DNA of 64,000 bases, taken from assembly GCA_001799575.1 (NCBI GenBank), contig MGTT01000019.1, forward strand, positions 1 to 64,000. The letters run 5' to 3'. Position numbers and translations under genes: made by a program. Below the pieces are notes generated by a model that did not search any database, was not told the origin of the DNA, and was given only the letters and a program-made list of their open reading frames with translations. Source of the stretch: Elusimicrobia bacterium GWA2_56_46 (GTDB lineage Bacteria; Elusimicrobiota; Elusimicrobia; Elusimicrobiales; UBA9959). Below, piece after piece: positions 18,886 to 27,138 of this stretch (its first letter is position 1; every line of letters starts with the position of its first letter).

Positions 18886-19716
18886 ATGGGAAAACCATTC
18901 AGGCGTGCGTTCATAGAGATAACCAACGCGTGCAATCTGTCCTGCGGATTTTGCGCCGCCACTTCCCGTCCGCCCGCCTTTATGTCCCCGGAGGAATTCG
19001 AAGCCGCGGCCGCGCAGGTGGAACCGCTGGCGGCCGTGGTTTCGCTTCACGTGATGGGGGAGCCTTTCACTCATCCCCGGCTTCCGGAGATCCTGGGGAG
19101 CTGTTCCCGCCTCGGACTTAAGATCAACCTGGTGACCAATGGAACCCTGCTGGACAGGTTCGGCCCCTCTGTTTTCACCGAAAAATGCCTGAGCCAGCTC
19201 TCTTTTTCGCTGCACGCGCTGGCCGCGCTGCCGCCGCGGCGGAGGCTTGAAAAACTTGGCCGCCTTATTGAATTCGCGGAGAACAAGCCGGAGAGCCTTA
19301 CAGTGGGCTTCCGGTTAAGGGGAAGCGGGGACGATTCTTTTGTAAAAGAAACATCGGCCTATGTGCTGAATTCATTCGCCAAAAGCGCCGGCCTCAGGCG
19401 GACGGATCGCGGCATAAAGCTGCGGGACAAGGTCTATCTGAATTTCGGAGCATTATTCGAGTGGCCCGGCCGGGGGCCCGGCAGGGAGAAGAACGGCTGT
19501 CTGGGTCTGCGGCATCATTTCGCCGTGCTCTGCGGCGGGGAAGTGGTTCCGTGCTGCGCCGATCACGACGGACGCCTCTCCCTGGGCAATATAAAGAAAA
19601 AGCCGCTCGCGGAGATCCTGGGCGGCCCCGCGGCGGCCAGGCTCCGGGACAGCATAGCCGCGAAAACGCCAATGCCCGCTTACTGCGCCGCCTGCGGTTT
19701 CACCGCCCCCTGCTGA
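18886..19716 (+). CDS. Radical SAM protein with SPASM-like C-terminus
   Basis: The start is taken at the ATG at 18886; one at 18880 is also in frame. The 277-residue protein has the radical SAM cluster motif CNLSCGFC near residue 15 and a C-terminal set of cysteines (CLGL, VVPCCADHDG, CAACGFTAPC) that resembles a short SPASM domain for extra iron-sulfur clusters. SPASM proteins often modify peptides or mature enzymes. The substrate is unknown. A possible leader-type peptide gene lies on the opposite strand just downstream (19813-20019), which makes a peptide-modifying role worth testing. Confidence 0.85.
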   Translation: MGKPFRRAFIEITNACNLSCGFCAATSRPPAFMSPEEFEAAAAQVEPLAAVVSLHVMGEPFTHPRLPEILGSCSRLGLKINLVTNGTLLDRFGPSVFTEKCLSQLSFSLHALAALPPRRRLEKLGRLIEFAENKPESLTVGFRLRGSGDDSFVKETSAYVLNSFAKSAGLRRTDRGIKLRDKVYLNFGALFEWPGRGPGREKNGCLGLRHHFAVLCGGEVVPCCADHDGRLSLGNIKKKPLAEILGGPAAARLRDSIAAKTPMPAYCAACGFTAPC

Positions 19717-19812
19717 AGGATGGGTTCCAAATCCTCCGATAAGCGGTAGTCCTAACGGCTTTGGGTTAACGAACCGCAAGATAGTAAAAACGGGGGCACC
19801 CCTTAGTAAAAT

Positions 19813-20019
19813 TTACCACTTGATGGTCGCTCGGCACTCCAATCTGAAAATATAGTATATTGACCCCACCCAAATTACTACTTGAATTACCCGCCCGGTA
19901 TAGGGATCAGTAAATTTTATGAAACCACCGGTGCTTTCCCCGCCGTCCGTGGCTCCCCTTAAAATCATCATCTCTTCATTGGTAACCATCTTGCAGTTTG
20001 GATGCTTCGTTGTTGACAT
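19813..20019 (-). CDS. Possible small peptide with double-glycine-type leader
   Basis: A frame starting at the ATG at 20019 encodes 68 residues. It contains MVTNEEMMILRGATDGGEST, similar in style to bacteriocin or RiPP leaders that end in ExxxLxGG/GA, followed by a hydrophobic core (VIQVVIWVGSIYYIF) and one cysteine. Evidence against is a weak ribosome binding site and a good plus-strand promoter (20013-20042) overlapping the start. The neighbouring radical SAM/SPASM gene makes a modified peptide conceivable. It is a candidate, not a firm gene. Confidence 0.35.
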   Translation of the reverse strand: MSTTKHPNCKMVTNEEMMILRGATDGGESTGGFIKFTDPYTGRVIQVVIWVGSIYYIFRLECRATIKW

Positions 20020-20042
20020 CTTTTTGCTTCGTGTTGTATACT
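20013..20042 (+). promoter_or_regulatory. Strong sigma70-type promoter of the surface-fibre gene
   Basis: A consensus TTGACA (20013-20018) is separated by 18 bases from TATACT (20037-20042). The predicted leader is about 120 bases before the ATG at 20171. It probably drives the fibre, sorting-domain and PorV-like genes. Confidence 0.65.
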
Positions 20043-20170
20043 GCATATGTTGGTTTTATTATGCTTAGTAAAGAATGTTGAGTTTAGATTCAAGAGCGTG
20101 CCGTCAAGGGGGCATATAGGATTTACTGTTATAACAGGTTTGCATTCCGAATTAGTGAGAGGAAAAAAAT

Positions 20171-22258
20171 ATGAATAAAATAATAGCAATATCCATTCTT
20201 CTGTTGACCATGTCATTGGGCCATGCGGAAAATTATAATTCCGTTCCCGTACAGGGAATACTGGATCCGGTGCAAAATATTTATGATGTGAGTGTGGACA
20301 TTCTGGCCGGGGGGAATGTGGTGGGATCAGCCGATAATATCGATTTGCTGCCTGATGCCAGCGGTTATTTTACGGTATTCCTGCGCAATATTAACCCGGC
20401 GATTTTTCAGGGCGCGGATGCCGCGTATGATGTGGTGTTTTCCACCATGGGTTACGAGACACCGATAGCAAGCGCGCCCCTGACCAGCGTTCCATTTGCG
20501 ATGGCGCTTAAAGGCGCCTCGCAGACGGACAATATTATCGGCGCCAAAGGAAATATAGGTATCGGCACTACAAATCCGGCCTACAAGCTCGTTGTTTCCT
20601 CCGGCGCCGGAGAAGCGGGCACAATTTTAGCGGTTTCCACAGGCACTTCCGATGTCTTTTACGTGACCGGAGCAGGCGGGGTTTATGCGAACAAGTTTTA
20701 TGGGGATGCTTCTTCTTTGACCGGTATCACCGCGTCCGGCGGGGATAACCTGGGCAATCATACGGCGACAACTACGCTGCAAATGGCGGGGAATAATATT
20801 TATAACGCCAGCACGATCACCGCTACGGGTGATATAACGGCGGCGCGGTATCAGATAGGCGGCTCGCCGGTGGTTGCAGTATTGCCTGGGGCGGGCAGTT
20901 TCGGCGTGGGTATCAATGCTGGCAAGGTAAACACCGGGAATTATAATTCCTTTATGGGGTATAGCGCGGGTTCCAGTAATACGAGTGGGTGGGATGATAC
21001 GATTATAGGGTATGAGGCTGGCAAGGTAAACACGACTGGCACGCGCAATACTTTTGTCGGCGCCCACGCTGGTAGCGCCAACACTATCGGGGTGAGCAAT
21101 ACTTTCCTGGGTGCAAATGCAGGACTGTTAAACGACGAAGGCACTGATAATGTGTTTGTTGGAGACTTAAGCGGATATAGTAATACCAAAGGAATAGCCA
21201 ATGAGTTTATAGGTTCAGGGTCTGGATTTGGGAACACGACCGGGAGCTATAACTTTTTTGGCGGTGGGTATGCGGGCGGCGGGAACACGACCGGTGCTGA
21301 CAATGTTTATATTGGCCACGCCGCGGGCCGAAATACTAAAACCGGCGCGGGCAATGTGGCAATAGGTTCAGGCGCCGGTATCGGCGCAGCGGGTAATTCA
21401 TTTTCAAGTTCCACTATTGTAGGTTATCAGGCCGGATATTCTGTGCGTACCGGTTCCGCCGATAATATATTTGTCGGATTCAAGGCTGGTTATAATGTGA
21501 CCACGGGCGCGAACAACATAGTGATAGGCGACAATAAAGACACGTCGTCCGCGGGCGCGAGCAACGAGCTTAATATAGGCGGGGTGCTGTACGGCGATCT
21601 ATCGGCTAAGACTATCGGTGTGGCAAGGCAGGTTCCGCAGGCCGCTTTGGACGTAGTGTCGACGGGGACGGCGAACACGCAGTTCGCGCAGATCTGGCGT
21701 GACAGTAATGGCGTGATAAAGTCGTCAATATCAGCCACAGGCGTTCTGATGGCGAATAAGTTTATTGGTGACGGTTCCGGGCTGACCGGGATAGCGGCCG
21801 GTGGCGGGGATAATTTGGGAGACCATACTGCTACCACAAGTCTGAATATGGCCAATAACCAGATAATGAATGTTTCTTCTCTGACCATTATCGGCAACGC
21901 ATTCTCCGTGGGTGGCTCAACGTTGGCTGTGGTAAGTGGAAATGTGGGTATAGGAACAAATAATCCGTCCAAGAAAATGGAGGTGGTCGGTGACGCACTT
22001 TTTTCATCTAACATCTCAACGGTCGCGTTTAACGGATGGATTGATATCGGATTGGAAGTCAAAACAGCGTATGGTGTACAAGATTCTGCGGCAACGTGTA
22101 GTACCGGTAAAATACCAATCGGCGGTGGTTGCCAGGTTACTGACGGCGCCGCTTTGGGGATGAGTTATCCAACGGCCAATGGATGGACGTGTCGAGCGGT
22201 TCTAGGGAGTGGTATTAATGCCTTTGCTATTTGCGCGAGAGTAAAGCCGGAAAACTAG
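20171..22258 (+). CDS. Large secreted beta-repeat fibre-like protein
   Basis: The 695-residue protein has a signal peptide (MNKIIAISILLLTMSLGHA). Two tail-fibre-like modules occur at either end, each with GIGTTNP/GIGTNNP and FYGDASSLTGI/FIGDGSGLTGI followed by GGDNLG and ATTTLQM/ATTSLNM. Between about residues 245 and 450 lie some ten repeats of a 22-24-residue motif of the type NTFVGAHAGSANT, resembling YadA-head or left-handed beta-helix repeats. The C-terminus has four cysteines around CSTGKIPIGGGC. The protein is probably a surface fibre or adhesin, perhaps trimeric. The genes after it suggest export by a PorV-assisted pathway. Function is inferred from architecture. Confidence 0.7.
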   Translation: MNKIIAISILLLTMSLGHAENYNSVPVQGILDPVQNIYDVSVDILAGGNVVGSADNIDLLPDASGYFTVFLRNINPAIFQGADAAYDVVFSTMGYETPIASAPLTSVPFAMALKGASQTDNIIGAKGNIGIGTTNPAYKLVVSSGAGEAGTILAVSTGTSDVFYVTGAGGVYANKFYGDASSLTGITASGGDNLGNHTATTTLQMAGNNIYNASTITATGDITAARYQIGGSPVVAVLPGAGSFGVGINAGKVNTGNYNSFMGYSAGSSNTSGWDDTIIGYEAGKVNTTGTRNTFVGAHAGSANTIGVSNTFLGANAGLLNDEGTDNVFVGDLSGYSNTKGIANEFIGSGSGFGNTTGSYNFFGGGYAGGGNTTGADNVYIGHAAGRNTKTGAGNVAIGSGAGIGAAGNSFSSSTIVGYQAGYSVRTGSADNIFVGFKAGYNVTTGANNIVIGDNKDTSSAGASNELNIGGVLYGDLSAKTIGVARQVPQAALDVVSTGTANTQFAQIWRDSNGVIKSSISATGVLMANKFIGDGSGLTGIAAGGGDNLGDHTATTSLNMANNQIMNVSSLTIIGNAFSVGGSTLAVVSGNVGIGTNNPSKKMEVVGDALFSSNISTVAFNGWIDIGLEVKTAYGVQDSAATCSTGKIPIGGGCQVTDGAALGMSYPTANGWTCRAVLGSGINAFAICARVKPEN

Positions 22259-22332
22259 ACTTGCATTTATTTTACAGGTGAAAGTCATGCAGGCTGTTTG
22301 TAAAGTGTGTGATTATCGGGTGGAGCTCTATC

Positions 22333-22863
22333 ATGAAAGGTAATTTAGTTAAGGGGTTTTTGGCCATTAATCTGATGTTCGGGATTTCTGTCGGAGTTGT
22401 TGCCGGAAAAAATACAAGGATTTCCATAGGAGCGATTCGGCCAGCGTCTGGGCTGGTCAAATCTATTGGGGTCGGGGGGATATTCCTTAATCGGAAAAAA
22501 ACTAAAACAACCGCCCCGGCTTTGGCAAAGCCTATAGCCCTTTCGGCAAGCCCGGCATTTGGCTTGGGTGAAATATATGTATATCCCAATCCCGCTAAAA
22601 GTGGTGCGGTGCCGACATTTCATATAGAATCCGGTGTCGCCGACAGTGTGAGGATAGTCATCTACAGTGTGTCGGGCAGGCAGGTTCATGAATATACGAT
22701 AACTGATCAGCCTCAGACAATGACCACAAACAGTAAAACCGTGGAGGCGTATAAATATGCTTGGAGCGGGCACATAGCGAGCGGCGTTTATTATTATGTT
22801 ATCGAGGCTAAAAAATCGGGTCAGAAGCTGAAAAAGTCCGGTAAATTTGCGGTGATTCGCTGA
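22333..22863 (+). CDS. Secreted protein with T9SS-like/FlgD-Ig C-terminal sorting domain
   Basis: The start is set at the ATG at 22333 (MKGNLVKGFLAINLMFGISV, a signal peptide); an ATG at 22309 is also in frame. Of 177 residues, the last 95 form a domain with IYVYPNPAKSG, VRIVIYSVSGRQV, YAWSGHIASGVYYYVIEAKK and SGKFAVIR. This is the pattern of type IX secretion sorting tails and FlgD-Ig-like domains. Almost nothing precedes the domain, so the protein is nearly a bare tail. It sits between a fibre gene and a PorV-like gene and may act as an anchor or carrier. Confidence 0.7.
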   Translation: MKGNLVKGFLAINLMFGISVGVVAGKNTRISIGAIRPASGLVKSIGVGGIFLNRKKTKTTAPALAKPIALSASPAFGLGEIYVYPNPAKSGAVPTFHIESGVADSVRIVIYSVSGRQVHEYTITDQPQTMTTNSKTVEAYKYAWSGHIASGVYYYVIEAKKSGQKLKKSGKFAVIR

Positions 22864-22906
22864 CGCGAAGTCATCTTTCATAAGATAGAAGGTTATAGGG
22901 GCTTTT

Positions 22907-23857
22907 ATGAAGAAATATCTAATCGCCGGCTGCTTGGCCATTTGTGGGTTTAACACGGTTGCTGCCCTGGAAACCGGCGCGGAGTTCCTTAAAATTGATA
23001 CCGACGCCAGGGCGGTATCCATGGGTTCCGCATATACCGCAACAGCCGACGGCATAAATTCCTTGAGTTATAATCCGGCCGGGCTGGCATCAATAAAAAG
23101 CGCGGAGTTCGGATTCAGCCATACCACCTGGCTTATGGATTCCAGACATGATTTTGTGGGGGTGGGGATGCCGTTTGGAAATAAAACACGGGGAGTGGGG
23201 AGCGGGAAGCGGGGGAGGGCGGCGGTGGGGTTGGGCGTAGTCAGGCTTAGCAACAGCGATATGGAGATCCGTAATGCGGATGAAAGTACGGGGGGCAGCT
23301 TTTCAAGTTATGATCAGGCCGTGACGCTTGGCTTTGCTATGGGTAATCCGGAAATAAAAAGGTGGGGAATGGGCGCGGCGGTGAAATATATTGAAAGTTC
23401 TATTGCCGGTGTGAAAGCGCGGGCGGTGGCGGCAGACTTTGGCCTGAATAGAACGCTCAGGGGTATGCCGGTTACGTTCGGCCTGTCGGTGCAGAATTTG
23501 GGAACCCCGATGAAGTATATAAGCCAGAAGGATCCGTTGCCGCTGACACTGGCCGGCGGCGTTGCGGTGGGCGTAATCTCCGGTTTTAATCTGGCGATGG
23601 ACGTGAAACGTTCCGTTTACGACAAACGGACGACAGTAAGCGTGGGCACCGAATACACCCTAATGTCGGTGGTGTCGCTGAGGAGCGGCCTAACGATGAA
23701 CAGAGACTTTGCGAACAAGGTAGGCTTGGGCGGAGTAAGGGGGAATTTCAGCGCTGGTGCTGGACTGAATTTTTGGGGCATGAATATGGATTACGCAATG
23801 CAACCGTATGGTGAGCTTGGAAACACGCAGAAAATAACCCTCCGCAAAAAGTTTTAG
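22907..23857 (+). CDS. PorV/UPF0164-like outer-membrane beta-barrel protein
   Basis: The 316-residue protein has a signal peptide ending near NTVAA and the family hallmarks GAEFLKIDTDARAVSMGSAY and SLSYNPAGLASI. It ends in an aromatic/charged strand (KITLRKKF) typical of outer-membrane barrels. PorV proteins in type IX systems carry cargo with C-terminal sorting domains to the surface; the preceding gene encodes such a domain. A GC-rich 7-bp-period tract at 23187-23235 encodes a Gly/Arg-rich insertion (GVGSGKRGRAA) that looks foreign to the barrel. Confidence 0.8.
   Translation: MKKYLIAGCLAICGFNTVAALETGAEFLKIDTDARAVSMGSAYTATADGINSLSYNPAGLASIKSAEFGFSHTTWLMDSRHDFVGVGMPFGNKTRGVGSGKRGRAAVGLGVVRLSNSDMEIRNADESTGGSFSSYDQAVTLGFAMGNPEIKRWGMGAAVKYIESSIAGVKARAVAADFGLNRTLRGMPVTFGLSVQNLGTPMKYISQKDPLPLTLAGGVAVGVISGFNLAMDVKRSVYDKRTTVSVGTEYTLMSVVSLRSGLTMNRDFANKVGLGGVRGNFSAGAGLNFWGMNMDYAMQPYGELGNTQKITLRKKF
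23187..23235. repeat. Heptanucleotide array inside the PorV-like coding sequence
   Basis: The units CACGGGG, AGTGGGG, AGCGGGA, AGCGGGG repeat every 7 bases from 23187 to 23214 and then decay up to about 23235. The array keeps the reading frame and encodes a loop rich in Gly, Lys and Arg. Confidence 0.6.
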
Positions 23858-24050
23858 TTATACGGCACTGCCAAGGTTTGTATGCCTCCCGCCCTGCGGT
23901 CGTTGGTGCGCAAAAATCAGACAAATAGTCTTGCATAACCCTGTAAGATACCTCCGCGCACCAATTTCATAGCGATTTGCGGAATTCGGATTATGAAAAT
24001 TCTGAAAAATTGCAAAAAATGGGGCCAGAAATGTTAAGATCATAAATAAT

Positions 24051-25127
24051 ATGAAAAAATTGCCCCGTAAACTGCGAGTGCTTTCAAAACTCGGCTGGAG
24101 CATCCTGAACGGTCTGCTCCTCAAACGCCGGCGGCCCGTTTTTGTCGGCCTGTATATTACTAATCTCTGTAACCTGCGGTGCCAATACTGCTTTGTGAAT
24201 ATTGAAGGCCGTTTTGACGATCCCAAGCGCAAAGGCTTCAGCAAGGAAGAGGTTTTTAAGATCGTGGATGAATTGTACGACATGGGTACCCGCTGGATCT
24301 TTCTTCTGGGCGGGGAGCCGCTGATGCATCCGGACATAGGCCCGATAGTGAAGTATATAACAGATAAAGGGATACTTCTCCACATTCTCAGCAACGGTGT
24401 TCTGATCGAGCGCAAAATAGGAGAGATAGAGCCGGCGGACAGCATTTGTGTGAGCGTGGACGGGGGGGAGGCTTCCACAGACAAAATGCGCGGAGCCGGA
24501 ACGTTTCAAAAAGCCTTGCGGGGCGTTGAAATCGCCTTGGCGCGCGGGATGCTGGTGCGCGTGCATGCCGTCCTCAGCAAACACAGCCTCGGTGAAATGG
24601 AAATGCTGGCGGAAATGGCCAGGCGGATGGGCGTTACCATAACTATTTCTCCGCCGAATTATCTGGGCGCGAGCGGGGATCCGGCCCTGCAGCTGTCTAC
24701 TGCCGAGTACAAGGACTTTTACCGCCGCTACCGGAGTTTAAAAGAACAGGGATTTCCTATCGGTAACTCCTATTATTCCATAGATAAGGCGCTGCATTGG
24801 CCCGTAGGCTATCATGAATTTATCGCCAAGGGCGCCGAGTTCCCGGACTACACCCCGATCCCCTGCGTGATAGGCGAAACTCACGGCTGTATAGACGCCG
24901 AAGGCACCATGTTTAATTGCATCCAGCGCGGCTGTTTGGACGGGCTTAATATAAAAAACGTGGGCATCAAGCGCGCCTGGGACGAACTTCCCAGGCTGCG
25001 CAAGGACTGCGTAAGCTGCGCGTCGGTAAATACCATCGAAACCTCGGCGTATCTTAACCTGCGGCCGGAGATCATGCGGGACGGATTCTCCTTTTTCTGG
25101 AACCGGCGCAAAAAGCAGCGCCCGTGA
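24051..25127 (+). CDS. Radical SAM/SPASM protein
   Basis: The 358-residue protein has the cluster motif CNLRCQYC near residue 40, the glycine-rich LLGGEPLMHPD, and late cysteines (CIQRGC, CVSCAS) fitting a SPASM or twitch domain. A preceding gap (23858-24050) contains no gene. It overlaps the methyltransferase gene by 4 bases, and a B12-type radical SAM gene follows, so the three probably act together, for example in modifying a peptide, a cofactor or a lipid-linked glycan. The specific reaction cannot be read from the sequence. Confidence 0.85.
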   Translation: MKKLPRKLRVLSKLGWSILNGLLLKRRRPVFVGLYITNLCNLRCQYCFVNIEGRFDDPKRKGFSKEEVFKIVDELYDMGTRWIFLLGGEPLMHPDIGPIVKYITDKGILLHILSNGVLIERKIGEIEPADSICVSVDGGEASTDKMRGAGTFQKALRGVEIALARGMLVRVHAVLSKHSLGEMEMLAEMARRMGVTITISPPNYLGASGDPALQLSTAEYKDFYRRYRSLKEQGFPIGNSYYSIDKALHWPVGYHEFIAKGAEFPDYTPIPCVIGETHGCIDAEGTMFNCIQRGCLDGLNIKNVGIKRAWDELPRLRKDCVSCASVNTIETSAYLNLRPEIMRDGFSFFWNRRKKQRP

Positions 25128-25771
25128 AGATTCGTACTTGGATGAAGGGAAAAATGGAGCAGCGTGCCGATCCGAGGCGGATTTTAAAGATACCCTGGAT
25201 ATACCGGTTTTTCCAGGAAGTTATAGGGGGAGACGCTCTCCGCCGCCGTTTTATCAACGAGTATGTGCGAGCCAGAAAAGGGGACAAAGTCGTCGATATC
25301 GGATGCGGCCCGGCTCAATATCTCTTATGGCTTCCGTCTGTGGAGTACATAGGAATTGACACGGATGAAACCTATATCAACGCGGCGCGTAAAAAATACG
25401 GAGGCCGGGGAGTCTTTTTAGTTGGAAGTTCCGAAACATTATTCGACGATCATAGATTTTTAAATGCCGATACGGTGATCTGCTCCGGCGTATTGCACCA
25501 CCTGGATGACGAGGAGGTTGTCCGTCTCCTGAAGTTCGCCCATAAGATCCTGAAAACAGGGGGAAGACTGGTTTCCATAGACAGCTGCTGGGTGCGGAAT
25601 CAGGGTATCCTTGCGAAATGGATCATGTCCAAAGATCGTGGCGGCAATATCCGCACGGAGGAGCATTACCGGGAACTGGCTGAACGTGTATTCCCCAGCG
25701 TAAAAACCACCATAAATTTAACGCCTATGAGAATCCCGACGACCTGTGTCATCATGGAATGCGCGAAATGA
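25124..25771 (+). CDS. SAM-dependent class I methyltransferase
   Basis: The 215-residue protein has VVDIGCGPAQYLLWL (motif I) and VICSGVLHHLDDEEV, the usual class I methyltransferase layout. The start is a GTG at 25124 overlapping the previous stop codon; an ATG at 25142 is a possible alternative. It overlaps the B12 radical SAM gene downstream by 4 bases (ATGA). The acceptor is unknown. Confidence 0.85.
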   Translation: MKIRTWMKGKMEQRADPRRILKIPWIYRFFQEVIGGDALRRRFINEYVRARKGDKVVDIGCGPAQYLLWLPSVEYIGIDTDETYINAARKKYGGRGVFLVGSSETLFDDHRFLNADTVICSGVLHHLDDEEVVRLLKFAHKILKTGGRLVSIDSCWVRNQGILAKWIMSKDRGGNIRTEEHYRELAERVFPSVKTTINLTPMRIPTTCVIMECAK

Positions 25772-27138
25772 AAATAATCCTGATGAAGCCCCTGTATACG
25801 TCCAGGGAAGCGGAGTTTTGCGATATCGGGCTTGGTTATCTGGCTTCCGGGCTGATGCGCGGCGGACACGATGTTAAACTGTTTCTGCGATTCCGTTCCG
25901 AGGATGAATTCAGGGCTGTTCTTGCCGCGGAAAAGCCGGATATGGTCGGGATCAAGGTTTTGACGGTGAATGTGGGCGCGGTGGCGAAAACGATCAAGAT
26001 AGTGCGCGAAAACAGCAAAGCCGTGATCGTTATCGGTGGTCCGCATGTCAGCGGCGACCCTTCCGGGGTGCTGGAGTATGTCCCCGCGGATTACGCGATG
26101 AGTTCGGAGGCCGATCTGGCGTTCGTGGAATTAGCGAGGCTGCTGTCCGCGGGCGCGCTTACGGACGGGCGAAAGTCCCTGCCGGGTTTGATCTACCGGG
26201 AGGCCGGCGTGATCCGGGCTAATCCCCCGGAGGTCATCAACGATCTGGACGCGCTTCCTTTTCCCGCCTGGGAATTGATGCCTCCGGGCAGTCTTCCTTC
26301 GCTGGTTTTCAAACGGTTCCCGGCTGCCGGCATCATAGCGACAAGGGGTTGCAGCAACAGATGTTCGTTCTGCGCCGAGTCGTGCAAAAAGCTGCGCTTT
26401 CGCGGCGTTGAGAGCGTGATCGCGGAGATAAAATATCTGGTTTCCCGCTTCAATGTGCGCGAGATCCAGTTTCTGGACAGTAACTTTACCGCAAAAAAAG
26501 AATATATCGTAGCGTTGTGCCGGGCTATACTGGATAGCGGGCTCTCCCTCGCCTTTTGCGCTCCTAACGGCGGCCGGCTGGAGCACATTGATGAAGAAGT
26601 GTGCGGGCTTCTGGAGCGTATAGGATTTTACCGTATAAACATCGGCATAGAATCCGGAGATCCGGCGATCCTGCGCGCGGTGCGGAAAGATCTGGATCTT
26701 TCCCTGGTGGATGAAAAGGTAAGGCTTTTGCGCAGGCACGGTATCCAGACAGTCGGTAATTTCATGCTTGGCTTTCCGGGGGAGACCCGGCTGCAGATGC
26801 GCAAAACTCTTGATTTGGCCTTGTCCCTCGATCTTACCGCCGCCAATTTTTCCATATACGCGCCGATGCCGGGGACGAAACTATACGACGATCTGGTAAG
26901 CGGAGAAAAGATCCCGCGCGGCCGCGACTTCCAAAACTATAACTTTGTTTCCTATGAAAACAGTCTTTCGGAAATGTCTCCAGGCGAGCTGAGAAAATTC
27001 CGTAACTATTGTGTGACCGCTTTTATCCTGCGCTGGAGGACTTTAAAGACCATCGCCGAACTGATAAAAAGCGGCATCGCGTGGAACAGCCTCGTTCAGC
27101 GCATATACTGGATGTATATTTCAAAATTGATAAGATAA
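25768..27138 (+). CDS. B12-binding-domain radical SAM enzyme
   Basis: From the ATG at 25768 the product is 456 residues. The N-terminal 130 residues look like a cobalamin-binding Rossmann domain (FCDIGLGYLASGLMRGGHDV, VIVIGGPHVSG). A radical SAM domain follows with ATRGCSNRCSFCAESC near residue 195 and later FMLGFPGE. This is the class B layout used for methyl transfer to unreactive carbons or for ring rearrangements. No DxHxxG cobalamin-ligand motif is obvious, so direct Co ligation is uncertain. It ends the tightly overlapping three-gene set. Confidence 0.85.
   Translation: MKIILMKPLYTSREAEFCDIGLGYLASGLMRGGHDVKLFLRFRSEDEFRAVLAAEKPDMVGIKVLTVNVGAVAKTIKIVRENSKAVIVIGGPHVSGDPSGVLEYVPADYAMSSEADLAFVELARLLSAGALTDGRKSLPGLIYREAGVIRANPPEVINDLDALPFPAWELMPPGSLPSLVFKRFPAAGIIATRGCSNRCSFCAESCKKLRFRGVESVIAEIKYLVSRFNVREIQFLDSNFTAKKEYIVALCRAILDSGLSLAFCAPNGGRLEHIDEEVCGLLERIGFYRINIGIESGDPAILRAVRKDLDLSLVDEKVRLLRRHGIQTVGNFMLGFPGETRLQMRKTLDLALSLDLTAANFSIYAPMPGTKLYDDLVSGEKIPRGRDFQNYNFVSYENSLSEMSPGELRKFRNYCVTAFILRWRTLKTIAELIKSGIAWNSLVQRIYWMYISKLIR

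Follow-up and report, generated by a model that had tools for sequence, protein, structure and literature searches.

A three-gene module on one contig of Elusimicrobia bacterium GWA2_56_46 encodes a repetitive fibre protein without a type IX sorting tail, a small protein made almost only of such a tail, and an outer membrane barrel of the PorV family. We propose that, after export, the tail protein remains docked in a PorV barrel of its own and acts as a foot for the fibre, which is the likeliest of the readings weighed here and is held tentatively. The three genes represent a concrete module from which surface fibres may be built in uncultured Elusimicrobiota. The window analyzed comprises 64,000 nucleotides (positions 1 to 64,000 of contig MGTT01000019.1, here C19), and the assembly of the source genome comprises 2.66 Mb with 98.8% completeness. 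In the following, C-numbers denote contigs of the source genome and L-numbers denote stretches or loci of this genome and of its relatives.

The module extends from 20013 to 23857, and the window ORFs and their translations include the three same-strand (+) genes where the initial annotation had placed them. The gap between fibre and tail gene is 50 bp, that between tail and PorV gene 43 bp, and a scan of the locus gave no strong terminator-like site between the three genes. Upstream of the fibre gene, a sigma-70-like promoter (TTGACA-18-TATACT; 20013..20042, +) matches 11 of 12 consensus bases and is assigned by consensus only. It is the best among 15 sigma-70-like matches in the region 19700–24200, for which shuffled sequences lead to an expectation of 6.5. 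The promoter overlaps the start of a small ORF on the opposite strand (19813–20046, −; 77 aa), which is located between two radical SAM genes and showed no Pfam or NCBIfam match. The ATG-started part of this ORF opens with MSTTKHPNCKMVTNEEMMILRGATDGG, a start which we take to resemble a double-glycine peptide leader. Directly downstream of the triad, the region 24051–27138 encodes radical SAM, methyltransferase-like (assigned by eye) and B12-binding-type radical SAM proteins.

The fibre gene (20171..22258, +) encodes a protein of 695 aa, which begins with a Sec-type signal peptide (recognized by eye) and an N-terminal domain; next come the repeats, about eleven units of 17 residues each, and then a stalk and a small end containing Cys. 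The N-terminal domain (approximately residues 19–127; 20225..20551, +) is represented by an HMM common to nine other fibre genes examined and is predicted to consist mostly of strands, with pLDDT values of ~73–91 over residues 11–90 of a model beginning at protein residue 19. The NTFVGAHAG-type repeats, of which about ten had been annotated, are real and occupy residues 244–450 (20900..21520, +). Autocorrelation peaks at 17, 34 and 51, and the self-identity of residues 236–460 at these shifts is 0.34, 0.28 and 0.25, respectively, compared to a mean of 0.10. The count of about eleven, from residue 244 to approximately 450, was made by eye and from the period, and two stricter motif patterns matched nothing. 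In agreement with its annotation as tail-less, the fibre showed no tail match in Pfam and NCBIfam profile searches. Also, it belongs to no NCBIfam family and had no Pfam match, to YadA or any other family, up to an E-value of 1; neither an autotransporter domain nor a C-terminal membrane anchor barrel, as in YadA-type trimeric autotransporters, was found. The model of the whole fibre reached a mean pLDDT of 51, and fold searches gave nothing usable. The repeats match marine phage virion proteins with 32–42% identity (12 phage records, and PHROGs as well). A viral origin of the fibre was considered and rejected, as the phage records cover only part of it, mainly the repeats, and scans of viral contigs gave no relative, whether the fibre or the tail alignment A2 was used as query.

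The second gene (22309..22863, +) encodes 184 aa when read from a GTG codon; the likelier start is the ATG at 22333, with GGTGGAG upstream, resulting in 176 aa. Its product consists of a signal peptide, ~45 residues predicted to be disordered and a type A-like C-terminal sorting domain (residues 79–184; 22543..22860, +) including Lys179 (22843–22845). With 32.3 bits against TIGR04183 it lies above the cut-off of 23, while 25.7 bits against Pfam Por_Secre_tail are just below the cut-off of 27; its description as almost only a T9SS-like tail holds. The structure model is a beta-sandwich with residues 81–184 in blocks of pLDDT 87–98, and together with the TIGR04183 match it identifies a type A sorting domain with an Ig-like beta-sandwich. 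Among its best structural matches are the tails of PorZ (5m11; Z 10.7, rmsd 3.7, 94 aligned residues, 28% identity) and PorU (6za2; Z 10.5, rmsd 2.7, 93 aligned residues, 23% identity), with unrelated Ig-like folds scoring within 1 Z of both.

The third gene (22907..23857, +) encodes a PorV/PorQ-family outer membrane barrel of 316 aa. It was annotated as a PorV-like barrel, which is confirmed by 153.8 bits against NF033709 (cut-off 90) and a match to the solved PorV chain 6h3i_F (E 2.1e-6); the equivalog models for PorV, PorQ and PorV2 remain far below their cut-offs, and the family assignment applies at the subfamily level only. Other PorV-family proteins of ~545–590 aa possess an extra C-terminal half beyond the barrel (L080 on C20, L085 on C2 and L070 on C6).

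Tail genes and PorV genes are closely associated in the relatives. The tail search led to 80 named loci, of which 79 have a gene called at the tail match, and in 65 of these 79 the next gene encodes PorV (another gene in 11, locus end in 3; median gap 8 bp). As a control, PorV directly followed 3 of 477 neighbouring non-tail genes. In the source genome, a tail gene directly precedes 12 of 22 PorV-family genes on the same strand, counted in stretches picked around PorV and tail matches. Distances between tails correlate with distances between PorVs (Spearman 0.892, 77 pairs), and the maximum of 500 within-genome permutations was 0.751. Within single genomes, the coefficients were 0.891 for JACQWV (5 pairs; 19 of 1000 permutations as high), 0.818 for MGUA (5 pairs; 83 of 1000) and 0.662 for JAGVVD (7 pairs; 69 of 1000); the 12 pairs of the source genome alone gave a rho of 0.285, which is short of significance (112 of 2000 permutations as high). 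Judged from the gene pairing and these sequence comparisons, most type A-like tails here have a private PorV barrel.

A basic residue six positions from the tail end is present in 81 of 83 PorV-paired and in 21 of 26 unpaired tails (Fisher p 0.008), as read by eye from the C-termini, with 5 tails at locus ends left out; the contrast is weakened by the relatedness of sequences and by L168_3, which was counted as unpaired though PorV sits just upstream. The two paired tails without this residue are L161 (interrupted frame) and L166_4. It is also missing from the tails on C4, C16 and C3, and those on C4 and C16 have Met at this position. According to the available text of PMC10994853, an almost invariant lysine near the tail C-terminus contacts PorV in bound translocons, and the basic residue represented by Lys179 probably corresponds to this lysine.

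The source genome also encodes a SprA homolog, a 1795-aa ORF (C9:28000–33387) with 140.7 bits against TIGR04189, below the equivalog cut-off of 200. In the PDB, a profile from 14 such SprA-like ORFs matched solved SprA chains only (E 2.5e-20). With TIGR04189, each of the 41 genomes examined from the order gave a match, every one below cut-off; a negative result for SprA with PF14349 in 21 genomes was disregarded, as TIGR04189 finds SprA in all 41. PorV-family genes occur in all 41 genomes as well (3–39 per genome in the own family, 1–3 in the sister family), and tail relatives were found in 22 of the 25 own-family genomes, compared to none of the 16 from the sister family. The 80 named tail relatives belong to Elusimicrobia or Elusimicrobiota MAGs or to bins labelled only 'bacterium'. 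In some proteins, the single C-terminal domain is replaced by 3–6 tail-like domains (L012, 2–2767, on C14; L013, 2–2752, on C17; L174). For the motor, GldM (TIGR03517) gave no match in the source genome at E 10, and GldL (TIGR03513) none in the source genome and a weak one in 1 of 25 genomes (21.2 bits, cut-off 68.3). Because GldL and GldM were not found, a diverged motor being possible, we call the system type IX-like. The C25 sortase family PF01364 was matched in 0 of 41 genomes, and the control genomes gave no match either. The type IX context assumed in the initial annotation was thus recovered in part: a divergent SprA homolog, PorV paralogs and tail-bearing genes are present, but GldL/GldM (PorL/PorM) were not found in the source genome. 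At the level of gene content, the existence of a T9SS context in this genome is supported.

It appears very improbable that the locus is not related to type IX secretion at all, with an ordinary Ig domain of the FlgD/fn3 type as the tail and a structural porin or FadL-type transporter as the barrel. The tie of generic Ig folds with T9SS tails in structure scores, weak Pfam matches to FlgD_ig and Toluene_X and the missing GldL and GldM would fit such a reading, but it is opposed by the PorV/PorQ subfamily score of the barrel, the reciprocally matched SprA homolog, the pairing of tail and PorV genes, and the rank and identity of the PorZ and PorU tails among the top structure matches.

Tail, PorV and tail-less fibre were found together at 8 loci in 6 genomes, the triad of the window being one of the 8, with a bare tail in 5; as the triad stretches were picked for tails and PorVs, the 8 loci are not a rate. 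On C6 of the source genome, a 399-aa tail protein and two fibres are encoded, with PorV beyond a small opposite ORF. The order tail-only gene, PorV, fibre is present at L091, L092 and L089, the fibre of L089 being partly masked and its N-terminal domain unseen. L168 contains PorV, a tail-only gene, two fibres and then a second tail and PorV, and L163 and L166 contain tails of 435 aa and at least 341 aa, respectively, together with PorV and fibre. At L090, a tail-only gene and PorV are followed by the contig end. The fibres across the triads are unlike each other and comprise 17-residue repeats, YadA-like heads, phage-fibre-like repeats or collagen-like repeats. On C4 and C16, a fibre gene (a fragment on C16) and a tail gene occur, PorV being absent; at C4:32516–33648 (L009), small genes lie between fibre and tail, one of them nucleotidyltransferase-like (toxin-antitoxin type) with a partner. 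The fibre at C16:180821 is located behind PorV and separated by several genes from the closest tail gene, which is upstream; the fibres on C7, C22, C26 and at C6:93947 have neither a tail nor a PorV neighbour, those on C7 and at C6:93947 ending near a contig end. The outcome named beforehand as speaking against the module, that the three genes never occur together in relatives, did not arise. Clusters recur in relatives, but they are not orthologous triads, since gene order and fibres vary.

The source genome encodes tail-only proteins in the window, on C4 (187 aa; 56% identity to the window tail) and on C16 (176 aa; 54%). Between the window and C4 genes, dS is 2.02 and dN 0.36, and between C4 and C16 dS is 0.33 and dN 0.12. 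As silent-site divergence far exceeds replacement, indicating purifying selection, these genes are not decaying. In a tree of 113 tails, with modest branch support and long branches that meet, the 20 tail-only rows need 6 state changes, of which well-supported branches force at least 3; among the 20, L156 seems to be a large cargo whose frame is broken. Passenger-less tails next to PorV are located in several separate clades of this tree. With these data at hand, we regard it as rather unlikely that the three genes are neighbours only, with tail and PorV stemming from a cargo and PorV pair that lost its passenger, the fibre using its own route, and shared regulation or gene traffic, not a complex, keeping them together. 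This would be consistent with the window tail and PorV both being near those of the C18 pair, whose cargo has at least 2364 aa, with the variable order of the three genes, with the C4 and C16 tails that have neither PorV nor the lysine, and with the fibre genes that have no tail or PorV neighbour. The purifying selection on tail-only genes, the 8 loci with all three parts and the several clades of passenger-less tails next to PorV argue against it.

Tail-only genes also precede other secreted proteins. A recurrent operon (L101, L178, L184, L173 and L175) comprises a tail-only gene, an overlapping or abutting PorV gene, and genes for a ~680-aa fn3-bearing and a ~340-aa protein, both of which are secreted and tail-less. 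Related tail-only operons without PorV (L093–L095) keep the ~680-aa and ~340-aa partners. The 674-aa partner in other tail-only operons was rejected as a fusion link, because all that it has in common with tail-bearing giants is its fn3 module, a promiscuous domain. The tail genes examined, of which many long ones are cut at the locus edge, gave no fusion of fibre and tail. That passenger-less tails locked in a private PorV carry out or anchor tail-less partners in trans, having evolved more than once in Elusimicrobiota, where a sortase-less system would need one PorV per substrate, is possible rather than probable; if true, the partners would be fibres as well as the 680-aa and 340-aa secreted proteins. 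In the window itself, it seems unlikely that the tail is a detachable export signal, the fibre and the tail-only protein binding in the periplasm and leaving together via SprA. The fibre does have its own signal peptide and no tail, tail-only genes precede the two other tail-less families, and SprA passes cargo tail-first, held by PorV, according to the available text of PMC10994853. However, our literature search gave no precedent for tail-less co-secretion, a repetitive fibre, which is probably oligomeric, would make the complex a demanding cargo, and the fibre-tail binding is putative.

For the preferred reading, a docked tail as foot of the fibre, we envisage the following steps. The 184-aa protein would be a type IX-like substrate without passenger and would leave via the divergent SprA, like other tail proteins of the phylum. 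Its tail would be bound by the PorV-family barrel encoded just downstream and would probably stay docked there, because no tail-cutting sortase was detected (the control genomes also being without a match). Such permanent docking would follow the example of Porphyromonas, in which PorV retains the PorU tail and PorQ the PorZ tail. The short N-terminal stretch, which would remain exposed after docking, would serve as foot for the co-expressed tail-less fibre. Homology, gene pairing and co-variation point to export and docking, and the gene neighbourhood is what suggests a separate foot on which the fibre may stand. The foot may also carry the fibre through SprA, and the role as carrier or cap suggested in the initial annotation is likewise putative. 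Were the sortase truly missing, all tails would remain on their barrels, in accordance with one PorV gene for each tail gene. Provided that every tail retains its own barrel, tails would act as anchors no less than as export signals, an idea of which a bare tail next to a fibre without tail would be the simplest natural test. Counted against the foot are the C4 and C16 paralogs without PorV and basic residue, the four fibres of the source genome without either neighbour, the lack of a fibre-tail fusion, the weak own-genome distance test, the SprA matches all below cut-off, and GldL and GldM not being found.

The type IX system has been called exclusive to Bacteroidota (available text of PMC12618676) or restricted to the FCB group (PMC11285876), and the available parts of PMC7031533, PMC12204202, PMC8542988 and PMC8857248 report none in Elusimicrobiota. 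The phylum examined here has a SprA homolog, PorV paralogs in large number and type A-like tails paired with PorV. Neither private barrels for type A tails nor tails acting in trans appeared in the literature searched on PorV families and paralogs and on tail-less co-secretion.

The proposed docking resembles PorU:PorV and PorZ:PorQ of P. gingivalis, where a surface protein is held on a PorV-family barrel by its type A tail, which is retained without cleavage, and the modelled fold of the window tail matches both tails. As far as described in the available sections, the tails of PorU and PorZ are retained, and PorV and PorQ, respectively, hold these two proteins (PMC5562754, PMC10202324), and in porU mutants uncut substrates remain on PorV (PMC5562754). 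Unlike PorU and PorZ, which are large attachment-complex proteins, the docked protein would be nearly bare here, with a separate fibre encoded alongside; also, in difference to a PorU:PorV-type system, PF01364 was matched in none of the 41 genomes (nor in the control genomes). The fibre, with its short glycine-rich beta repeats, is similar to phage tail-fibre-like and YadA-head-like fibres, and the fibre of one relative has YadA_head repeats. Unlike these, the window fibre is chromosomal and located beside tail and PorV genes, and no autotransporter domain was found in it. Concerning gene arrangement, the available text of PMC12618676 and PMC10202324 describes a cognate PorP/SprF gene downstream of type B tails, type A tails being served by PorV, and that of PMC9143113 describes anchoring of type B tails by PorP-like barrels. 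As in the type B pairs SprB-SprF and PG1035-PorP, in which the barrel is described to double as surface anchor (available text of PMC12618676 and PMC9143113), the barrel gene here lies directly downstream of its own tail gene. Unlike in these pairs, type A-like tails (TIGR04183) are combined with barrels of the PorV/PorQ family, and unlike here, the type A tails in the published accounts available are served by PorV without one PorV-family gene per cargo. In Bacteroidota, type B tails with PorP/SprF are a known case of the one-barrel-per-tail arrangement; here, it is found for most type A-like tails.
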